39,820 nt of DNA. It comes from Oceanobacillus indicireducens. Lineage in GTDB: Bacteria; Bacillota; Bacilli; Bacillales; Amphibacillaceae. The notes beneath the pieces are model-generated. The model saw only the letters and a list, made by a program, of their open reading frames with translations. It did not search any database and was not told the origin of the DNA. The position numbers were made by a program, and so were the translations under genes. Positions 35,925-39,820 of this stretch are shown piece by piece; the first letter of the stretch is position 1; each line of letters opens with the position of its first letter. The DNA is taken from positions 1 through 39,820 of the forward strand of contig NZ_BMOS01000007.1 in NCBI RefSeq assembly GCF_014647195.1, written 5' to 3'.

Positions 35925-36302
35925 TTGTCTGGAATTTTATCTGTTCTTGCTGTCATCATGAAGGAAGCAATGTTTTTCGTTTCCTATATAAAGAATCACG
36001 CCTTTCCGCAACCGCTATCTTCCAAGGAGGAGGCAAAATATATAAAAGCAATGCTTGAAGGGGATGGTGAAGCAAGGAACAAATTAATCGAACATAATTT
36101 GCGTTTAGTAGCTCATATTGTTAAAAAGTTCGATAATACCGGCGAAGACACGGAAGATTTGATCTCAATTGGAACGATCGGTCTCATTAAAGGAGTAGAA
36201 AGCTTTTCAGTAGATAAGGGAACAAAATTAGCCACGTATGCCGCACGTTGTATTGAAAATGAAATTCTTATGTCTGTAGGGCAGTGCGAGGTAAAAAATT
36301 AG
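35925..36302 (+). pseudogene. sigK: 5' part of sigK (pro-sigma-K), interrupted by a skin-like element
   Basis: The product is the N-terminal half of the late mother-cell sigma factor. The hydrophobic pro-sequence ([19 protein letters not shown]), cleaved by SpoIVFB in the family, is followed by [22 protein letters not shown] and [15 protein letters not shown]. Similarity stops after CIENEILM, and nine unrelated residues lead to a stop. Region 4 is missing. The TTG at 35925 has GGGGGTG upstream. As in B. subtilis spoIVCB, a whole gene is expected only after excision of the intervening element in the mother cell, so this is a programmed split and not decay. Confidence 0.93.
36258..36262 (+). 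other. Likely left attachment core of the skin-like element
   Basis: AATGA is at the point where sigK similarity ends and is the same five-base core used at the B. subtilis skin junctions. The exact crossover cannot be fixed without the right junction, which is outside the window. Confidence 0.6.
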
Positions 36303-37798
36303 AAGGTGTGGATGTTGACGGTATCTGCATCAATCACCTCAACTTCTTGAATAATCATCTTTAGAACTTTTTGTTTTCGATTTACATCTAAGTTAGATCC
36401 CTTTACTTCGAGATAGTACTTAATTGCTTCTTCCAAAGCGTAGGTACTTTTTTTATTTCCTTCATTTTCAATTTGTTGCTGCAGGTTATCCAGCTTCTTC
36501 TGTAGATCATTCTCTTTTATCCTGGATTCCTTCATTTTTTCCTTTATCTCTTCTAGATCAATATCGTCATCATCTTCTGAAATAGTTATTAAAGTTAGAA
36601 GACGCTCCCGACCGTTTTTAATTTTCTTTATTTGTGATTTTAGATGTTCTATTTCTTCATATATATAGTGCTTCTTTTTCTCAACAGTTTCTATCTTGAT
36701 TTTATCCGGATTATCTAGCAAATCAATTATTTCCGACCAGACGAAACCGTTAAGCTTATTTTCGCTCATCATCCGGCCACATCCTTTGTTTTTAGCACCG
36801 GCATAATTCTTTCTACATTCATACACATAAAAATCTTTCCCGTGTGATTTTAGCTTTCTCCCATTCATTGTTTCACCACATCGACCGCACCTAACTAAAC
36901 CTGAAAGTAAATAATTATGTTTTCTAGTTGATTTATATCTACGGCTGGATTCTTGTATTAAAGCTTGAGCAAAATCAAATTGTTCTTCACTAATAATTGG
37001 AGGAATCTTAGTTAGTAACCATTCCTCCCTCGGGCGAAGCTTCCCATGCTCTATTTCCTCACCGGCTTGTTTTCTAACATAGTCACCTTCAGTATCGTAT
37101 TTATTCTGATAGTGATTACCCATATATGATTCATTTGTCAGAATTTGTCTAACCACATTCCTATGCCATACCTTTTTACCTTTTTTTGTGGGGATACCTA
37201 ATTCGGTCAAATGGTGAGCTATTCCATTTATACCTTTAAAAGAAGTGTCTGGATCGGTATAGTAGTCAAAAATCATCCTTACAATTTTGGCTTCTTTTTC
37301 ATTAATAATGTAAGTTTCATTTTCTTTATCGTATGTATAACCATACATATTGCCGTTTTTAACAACTTTCCCCCTTTTTGCTTTGCGGTATCGCCCAGTC
37401 ATTGTGTTGTGTTTAATTTTAGCCTTATCAAACTCTGAAAAAGCTCCACGAACTTGGAAGTATAGATTTCCTTCCGGATCGTTCTTGTAATCACTTTTTA
37501 CGAATAATAGTTTGACCTCGTGTTTATCTAGTTTTTCGGTAATTATTAATTGATTTAGTAGTTTTCTAGAAAGACGGTCCGGGTCATAACATATAACCTT
37601 TTCAATGACCCCTTTCTCAACATCTTCTAATAGCTTCGTTAAATTAGGGCGATTAAGTATCTCTCCAGTGTAACCATCATCGATATAAGTCAATACATCA
37701 TTCGTTTCTGCAAGTCGTACACAATCTTCAATCTGGCCTTCGATGCTGTACCCTTTTAGCTGTTCTTCCGTTGATACTCTTGCATAAATTGCTATCAT
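36299..37798 (-). CDS. spoIVCA: SpoIVCA-type large serine recombinase
   Basis: This site-specific recombinase should excise the skin element and restore sigK. The 499 residues start [13 protein letters not shown] with catalytic Ser9, then [10 protein letters not shown] (R75, R78) of the resolvase domain. The Recombinase domain has [13 protein letters not shown] at about 209-220. The zinc ribbon cysteines are C304, C307, C328 and C340, and a coiled coil lies at about 375-455. The length and sequence closely match B. subtilis SpoIVCA (500). It converges on sigK, and the two stop codons overlap by 4 bases. GGGAG lies 8 bases before the ATG. Confidence 0.95.
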
Positions 37799-37989
37799 CT
37801 TTTATTTTCTCCCTTCTGTATTCATTGTAGAGGTACTGATAACAATCACTGATGACTTTTTCAAAGTGCTTCCCCTTAATCACTTTTATCTGCAAAACAC
37901 ATCACCCCTTATTGGATGATATGCTGATGCAGCTTGTACGAATGTATGTTTATTATATACGGTAGTACATGATAAATCCACCTCAACAG

Positions 37990-38001
37990 GAACTTTTGTT
38001 C
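37990..38001. promoter_or_regulatory. LexA (SOS) box 1
   Basis: GAAC-TTTT-GTTC is a perfect GAAC-N4-GTTC site as bound by Bacillus LexA/DinR. It lies just upstream of the -35 of the 38069 operon. Confidence 0.75.
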
Positions 38002-38040: not shown

Positions 38041-38052
38041 GAACAAACGTTC
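38041..38052. promoter_or_regulatory. LexA (SOS) box 2
   Basis: GAAC-AAAC-GTTC is a second perfect GAAC-N4-GTTC site. It covers the expected transcription start, 51 bases from box 1. Confidence 0.8.
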
Positions 38053-38068: not shown

Positions 38069-38386
38069 ATGAAATTAATAAATGTTACTTTGATGCAAGA
38101 ACAGACAGTGAATGTTGTCAAAGCAGCATCGCCATGGAAAGACTCGGCAGTGAATATTTATGAATATCAAGACACCCGTTTTATTCATGAAGTTAGTGGG
38201 GATAATCAAGTATTAAGTATTTCAAAATTAAATACGCCCATTACAGAAAATGATTGGATTCTTGGTGTTAAAAAAATAATGAAGTTGAATCTTGTGGATG
38301 TAATGATAACTGTTAGACCAAGTGGAGTTGTCTTTATTAAGGAAAAAGACGATTCACTCCCGAAGATAGCGAACTGTACTTATTGA
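38069..38386 (+). CDS. Unknown protein of SOS-type operon, gene 1
   Basis: I do not recognise this 105-residue protein. It has no membrane segment or Cys motif. Predicted strands alternate with short helices (ITENDWILGVKKIMKLN; VMITVRPSGVVFIKEKDD). The ATG has AAGGAGTG 7 bases upstream. It is the first gene behind a promoter framed by two LexA boxes, so induction by DNA damage is likely. In Bacillaceae, LexA-controlled pairs of similar size often belong to yolD-uvrX repair operons, but neither YolD nor UvrX sequence is visible. It lies inside the skin-like element, divergent from spoIVCA. Confidence 0.8.
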   Translation: MKLINVTLMQEQTVNVVKAASPWKDSAVNIYEYQDTRFIHEVSGDNQVLSISKLNTPITENDWILGVKKIMKLNLVDVMITVRPSGVVFIKEKDDSLPKIANCTY

Positions 38387-38399
38387 GGGAAGTCGAAAA

Positions 38400-38750
38400 A
38401 TGAAAGATCTGGTACTTCGATTTATAACCTTGCCAATGGCAGTGCAAGTTTTTAAACAAGATAAAGAACAACTTCAAAAGTCGAAGGTGCATATAATATA
38501 TTTCAATCTGATTGACAGCATTTTAGAAAAGATGCAGGAAGATTTTAATAAGTTGAAAGTCGAAATGTATTCCAAACATCATTTAGATGTACGATATTTG
38601 GGTAAAGAAAACGGAATGGTAAAGTATACTATTAATAAGGAAGAGATTGGATTTTCACCAAATGAGTTACGCGATAATACTGAGGAATTAATGAAGGAAT
38701 ATCTCATCAATGTGGAAATTAAAAGCAAGGAACTTATCTGGGGAAATTAA
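38400..38750 (+). CDS. Unknown protein of SOS-type operon, gene 2
   Basis: This 116-residue protein is unrecognised. It is probably mostly helical in the N-terminal two thirds (IIYFNLIDSILEKMQEDFNKLKVEM) and then has a short beta stretch (LDVRYLGKENGMVKYTI) and a C-terminal helix. It starts 13 bases after gene 1 with GAGGGA upstream, so both are on one transcript. No catalytic motif is seen. The pair may be a DNA-damage response or prophage induction module; that is inference from regulation only. Confidence 0.8.
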   Translation: MKDLVLRFITLPMAVQVFKQDKEQLQKSKVHIIYFNLIDSILEKMQEDFNKLKVEMYSKHHLDVRYLGKENGMVKYTINKEEIGFSPNELRDNTEELMKEYLINVEIKSKELIWGN

Positions 38751-39497: not shown

Positions 39498-39820
39498 CTA
39501 TTTTACTCTCAAACGCTGCCCCGGCTGAATAACATCACTAGTCAAGCCATTAAGGCTCTTGATAGCATTTACAGTAGTATTATACTGTTGAGCGATTCCC
39601 CAGAGGGTCTCACCTTTTTTAACAGTATGATAAACAGCCCCGCCACCACTGACAATTAACACTTGTCCAGGATAAATATCATCAGATGTCAACCCATTTA
39701 AATCTTTCAACTGCTGTACAGTCATGTTGTGGGCTTGAGCAATACTCCAAAGAGTATCCCCTTTTTTAACCGTGTACGTATTACCTCCACCGCCGGACTT
39801 TCTTTTCAATCCTAAGGCTT
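39498..39820 (-). CDS. C-terminal part of LysM cell-wall hydrolase (partial)
   Basis: The gene enters from beyond the window edge; the frame stays open to 39820 with ..[12 protein letters not shown], so the TTG at 39809 is probably internal. Two LysM peptidoglycan-binding repeats are present ([22 protein letters not shown] and [23 protein letters not shown]). The ALGLK segment is typical of the end of an N-acetylmuramoyl-L-alanine amidase domain, which would make this a prophage endolysin or an autolysin like CwlA of the B. subtilis skin. The catalytic domain is not visible. Confidence 0.85.

Follow-up and report, generated by a model that had tools for sequence, protein, structure and literature searches.

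An apparently complete prophage with a predicted skin-type excision unit in the split sigK gene of Oceanobacillus indicireducens

Introduction

In Bacillus subtilis, the sigK gene is the target of the skin element. The recombinase gene spoIVCA lies within the element, and its start is overlapped in the +1 frame by skr, which encodes the demonstrated directionality factor (RDF) of skin (PMC6957869). The short core with repeats is described in PMC5025042. The sigK locus of O. indicireducens studied here is like skin in its target, in the position of the recombinase gene, in an RDF candidate overlapping the recombinase start, and in a short core with repeats. It differs in two respects. By its description, skin is a defective prophage, whereas the element considered here is apparently a complete siphoprophage. 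Moreover, skin is described in PMC6957869 without a stress-inducible promoter, whereas LexA-type boxes are located beside the skr-like frame here.

Several other systems are comparable. The infectious Alicyclobacillus phage MMB025 matches a prophage residing in sigK (PMC13141910). It is a whole phage with a SpoIVCA-type integrase, 47% identical to ours over recombinase residues 1-361, but it is 105 kb long and has a reported core TCTC (PMC13141910), compared with 36,581 bp and TGAAAT here. The Clostridium perfringens phage phiS63 also integrates in sigK; it is clostridial, and the likeness is drawn from its citation in PMC13141910 alone. Phages in sigK are already in print with MMB025 and phiS63, and ours adds another. 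In the engineered SPbeta-skin phage, a phage body is driven by the skin unit; it works, being excised both in sporulation and after mitomycin C treatment (PMC6957869). That phage is laboratory-made, whereas ours, known from sequence alone, looks natural and is perhaps its natural counterpart. SPbeta itself is described as a single prophage responsive to DNA damage and sporulation alike (PMC4191935). Finally, the Clostridioides difficile element skinCd also splits sigK, and its excision requires a recombinase and a small RDF (PMC5025042), but it uses another recombination unit and another position in sigK (PMC6957869). In the literature searched, which was mainly open-access, we found no recognisable report of the sigK prophage described below.

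Materials and methods

The window, i.e. the whole stretch of 39,820 nucleotides that was analysed, is C7:1-39820 (contig C7 of the assembly), and its end falls within the element. The SigK family cut-off was 298.65 bits. In the insert, 59 non-overlapping frames of at least 50 codons were kept by a script, a set that omits 38400-38750. PHROGs were run on 30 proteins of the insert, the large terminase being scanned over 412 of its 468 residues.

For comparison, 27 loci with recombinases of at least 42% identity were used. This set includes near-duplicates, as well as the phage contig L121 and the genome G275, both with no split sigK. Frames were judged to be skr-like from position, frame and conserved residues; B. 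subtilis skr is known here from its published description.

Results

The two halves of sigK, a gene required for completing spore formation, are located on the same contig and the same strand in direct orientation (Table 1), and a SpoIVCA-type recombinase is encoded beside the first of them. The first-pass annotation, which had described sigK as split by a skin-like element, is borne out in this, as well as in its observation that SigK similarity ends directly after ENEILM (36255-36272). The 3' half, which it had placed beyond position 39820, was found 36.6 kb downstream with a matching junction. Against the SigK family profile the separate halves score 193.5 and 182 bits, and the joined sequence, 378.9 bits. 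Joining the flanks at either end of TGAAAT yields an identical in-frame SigK of 237 residues, and in each of the 27 remaining genomes of the genus the sigK locus aligns with the joined DNA at 74-77% identity over 522-835 bases.

No SigK match at or above the cut-off was found anywhere in the genome (assembly of 89 contigs, 99.97% complete). The possibility of an intact sigK elsewhere, considered in the first-pass annotation, was rejected, the full-length match on contig C1 having 264 bits against the cut-off of 298.65 and lying directly before another sigma gene. We take this match to be placed like sigE before sigG. By score and neighbourhood, the genome contains sigma factors resembling E and G.

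Table 1. Features of the split sigK locus (positions on contig C7)
Feature	Position	Strand	Remarks
sigK 5' half (spoIVCB-like)	35925..36302	+	TIGR02846 positions 2-117 (or 2-123) of 227; last codons from element DNA
Core TGAAAT, left junction (putative attL)	36260..36265	+	exact match to 72841-72846 at right junction
Inverted repeat at element end, left arm	36263..36288	+	partner arm C7:72816-72841; 23/26 identical, centred on GA
SpoIVCA-type large serine recombinase, 499 aa	36299..37798	-	Pfam Resolvase, Recombinase, Zn_ribbon_recom
skr-like frame (RDF candidate), 55 aa, TTG start	37728..37895	-	+1 frame, overlaps recombinase start by 71 bp
CATACATT, resembles sigma-E -10 box	37941..37948	-	before skr; weak, lacks a clear -35 box
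LexA-type box GAACTTTTGTTC	37990..38001	.	identical 12-mer upstream of host lexA
LexA-type box GAACAAACGTTC	38041..38052	.	directly upstream of 38069 gene
Small gene, 105 aa	38069..38386	+	divergent from skr-spoIVCA
Small gene, 116 aa, after 38069 gene	38400..38750	+	ORF; no PHROG match
Endolysin, C-terminal LysM part	39498..39820	-	LysM domain; gene appears to continue past gap to ~40462
sigK 3' half	C7:72833-73219	+	SigK profile 109-227 at 72833-73189 (genome-wide SigK family search)

The core assigned to the junctions differs from that proposed initially. AATGA does occur at the left junction; the right one, where it had also been expected, reads AATTGA. Hence AATGA was rejected as a core common to both junctions, which share TGAAAT instead. 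We read the junctions of 15 out of the 25 genomes that have sigK interrupted at this site. The predicted crossover dinucleotide GA (36261-36262 here) is common to both junctions in 15 of these 15 loci, and sigK is broken at one identical codon in all of them. When the repeat arms were slid to 24 other registers over the 15 loci, the best match was 13/26, compared with 23/26 for the GA-centred register of our locus. The GA-centred register averages 17.7/26 in the loci read, and all the slid ones average at most 8.5. The putative attB is the short stretch encoding IENEILMHL.

A run of 123 N (39821-39943) is located within the element, and with an assembly of 89 contigs one may ask whether scaffolding brought the sigK halves together artificially. 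We regard such an artefact as extremely improbable. The gap falls within one apparent endolysin gene, with the LysM part on one side and the amidase part, which matches the endolysin family phrog_435, on the other; the arms match at both junctions; and the genes flanking both halves match genes flanking sigK in relatives.

The recombinase gene, whose frame is intact, is located beside the left junction, inside the element, and its product shares 73% identity with its counterpart at the split sigK of genome G142. It is convergent with the sigK 5' half, the two overlapping by 4 bp, stop codon against stop codon. Convergence and the 4-base overlap had been noted in the first-pass annotation, which mistook the recombinase stop in the overlap for its start. 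A scan of genome contigs yielded one distant recombinase (27%). On the recombinase tree ours groups with those of G142, G104 and G046 (support 0.94), pairing with G142 alone having the support of 0.45; a phage contig from IMG/VR adjoins this clade (support 0.98).

In all 27 loci, the stretch of about 75 bp preceding the recombinase start is open in the frame corresponding to skr, as against 3/27 and 4/27 for the other two frames. For the more distant recombinases, the skr frame is open in one of 14. The motif C[YL]xx[IL] is conserved in 22 of the 27 skr-like frames.

The insert between the junctions is 36,581 bp long. PHROGs assigned genes of packaging and head (large terminase, portal, minor head, scaffold, major head), of tail and lysis (major tail, tape measure, Dit, another tail protein, holin, endolysin), and, in addition, a DnaB-type helicase, a DnaD-like loader, a transcriptional activator, several regulators and a metallo-protease; no small terminase was found by PHROGs among the 30 proteins scanned. 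The portal is closest to those of Lactococcus phages of the r1t kind (about 65%). Comparison of the left 20 kb with phages by megablast produced 11 records, and among the 10 listed there is one common match, 126 bp in a capsid gene. In our reading, the insert is a siphovirus prophage that appears to be complete.

The middle of the prophage contains a second integrase-like gene (180 aa, G000:C7:60794-61336) assigned to phrog_216, its type being different from that of the serine recombinase. The small gene starting at 38069 has no PHROG match and no relatives in the other 396 of the 397 genomes of the order sample (E 1e-5). Together with the following ORF (38069-38750) it adjoins the LexA-type boxes, and the pair possibly represents SOS-controlled phage genes.

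Both occurrences of the pattern GAACNNNNGTTC in the window are within the 173-bp gap upstream of skr, and no further ones are found in the 44.2 kb read over the element and the right flank. A simple base-composition estimate of the chance of two occurrences in this gap is about 2e-6. At the same time, at least two were observed in 13 of 100 window shuffles, so that it is the clustering of the pattern, not its count, that is unlikely. Search for a longer LexA consensus with two mismatches showed no excess (11 observed vs 7.8 expected). Among the 27 loci, a LexA-type box is present at most 330 bp upstream in three. Binding of LexA at the two boxes is likely on these grounds, and control of skr by LexA is possible. 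Two loci besides ours may be mentioned: a 3.2-kb sigK element (L052, L088; G046:C1:2089500-2095500), which contains one small gene, regulator-like by eye, and whose recombinase is still preceded by a LexA-type box, and the recombinase of G035, which likewise has such a box upstream.

The promoter scan of the gap between skr and the 38069 gene gave one promoter-like site vs 1.2 in shuffles, that is, no excess; therefore the promoters in the gap are readings by eye. This applies to TTGCTT-17-TATAAT before the 38069 gene, which is below the threshold of the promoter tool, and to CATACATT, which resembles the sigma-E -10 consensus. The latter octamer occurs exactly in 1 of the 27 related loci, and a looser pattern, in two; the sigma-E reading of skr is drawn from this one octamer and from what is reported for B. 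subtilis.

Given the sigK target and the arrangement of the recombinase gene with the overlapping skr, both as in skin, the element could be an ordinary domesticated skin element, excised in sporulation only and producing no phage; the B. subtilis skin itself is described as a defective prophage with no stress-inducible promoter (PMC6957869). However, the main phage modules are present here with open frames, LexA-type boxes adjoin skr, and sigK scores above the cut-off in the 27 remaining genomes of the genus. We consider this explanation rather unlikely.

Within the genus, sigK over the cut-off is found in 27 of 28 genomes, and that of O. indicireducens is the sole split one. Such a distribution would be expected of a recent, possibly costly insertion, and the prophage might merely be parked in sigK, the split being damaging and unregulated and the lysogen unable to complete sporulation. 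The weakly supported sigma-E promoter of skr agrees with this. On the other hand, the att half-sites and the sigK frames are both intact, and the genome contains sigma factors that look like E and G. Besides, the B. subtilis mother cell excises its element by a recombination unit of the same type (PMC6957869). A merely parked prophage is, in our opinion, improbable.

The family sample comprises 159 genomes: 149 have sigK over the cut-off, six have it split, and four, with no match at 1e-40, were counted as neither split nor intact. With at most nine best candidates scored per genome, the six genomes with a recombinase of at least 44% identity are the same six that have split sigK, and among the 149 there are two recombinase matches, of 32% and 34%. 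In the order sample of 397 genomes, a recombinase match at 1e-45 was obtained for at least 32, among them ours, the best three candidates or fewer being considered per genome. The 39 recombinase-bearing genomes comprise 25 with sigK split at this position, five with a split at a second site and nine with sigK over the cut-off; these counts do not represent frequencies, as the genomes were picked for having a recombinase match, and the family sample is the unbiased one.

Of 16 other sigK-element loci, 13 have only the recombinase in common with the prophage (E 1e-6), in agreement with the initial remark that the cargo of such elements differs. Further prophage genes are shared by G186 (three), G277 (one) and G352 (one) at the same threshold. 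In the split genomes, the sigK halves are separated by roughly 2 to 58 kb. These distances and the paucity of common body genes suggest that the unit (att sites, skr and spoIVCA) is retained while the bodies of the elements are exchanged.

The IMG/VR phage contig, of which 21.5 of 39.7 kb were examined, encodes a recombinase 60% identical to ours with a skr-like frame. It has an unsplit attP-like inverted repeat (16/20), and its sole sigK-like match, 18 residues long (E 0.009), is located at this attP-like site. Hence phages with a skin-type unit outside sigK seem to exist. A skin-type recombinase with a skr-like frame was also observed in G275 (L065, G275:C1:749780-751276), where sigK scores above the cut-off and lies at a distance of 1.4 Mb.

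Among the split genomes, 22 have the two sigK halves on a single contig, and in two of these the halves are in opposite orientation. In one of the two (L090, G528:C7:449000-463000) the halves are at 450083-450439 (-) and 461427-461801 (+), and the att arms match in 16/16 positions in the best run and 18/26 overall; therefore recombination would invert the segment, not excise it. The surrounding 40 kb yielded no inverted DNA repeats. In the other (L085, G142:C2:354500-367000) there are 184-bp inverted repeats (84%) at 353862-354043 and 362949-363128, which offer an ordinary cause for the opposite halves; the segment between the halves encodes a subtilase and an LXG toxin-like protein that has a GH-E nuclease domain. 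The minimal sigK element (L092, G328:C6:518800-523300) is about 2 kb long and has space for little beyond the recombinase and the skr-like frame. In five genomes (L076/L094, L079/L095, L078, L080 and L081) sigK is split near residue 60 and the recombinase is about 30% identical; inspection by eye revealed no skr-like frame upstream of these second-site recombinases. This second site is perhaps the C. difficile-type site.

Discussion

We are highly confident that the element is a prophage residing in sigK and equipped with a putative skin-type excision unit, an assessment that concerns the location and the unit and leaves the response to DNA damage aside. According to this reading, a temperate phage of the siphovirus type would have integrated into sigK at the attB stretch. 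In the mother cell, skr and spoIVCA would be expressed, and Skr would switch the recombinase to recombination between attL and attR. A 36.6-kb circle would then be excised and sigK joined in frame, so that sigma-K could be made, while the forespore would retain the prophage. With less support, DNA damage may relieve LexA at the boxes beside skr, and the same unit would serve in prophage induction as well. Excision, infectivity and SOS control of the prophage are what we infer from the layout of the locus.

A broader proposal, which we put forward tentatively and with somewhat more doubt than belief, is that the prophage represents an infectious ancestor-type of skin. Here, a single RDF-recombinase unit would respond both to DNA damage and to the mother-cell programme, serving lytic escape as well as the completion of sigma-K, the last sigma factor of the mother cell, as in a natural counterpart of the SPbeta-skin phage.

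The locus provides a clear case of a predicted skin-type recombination unit carried by what appears to be a whole phage, in a single species of the genus. Since the other 27 genomes have sigK over the cut-off, the step from a phage to a domesticated sporulation switch would be directly testable in this genus.
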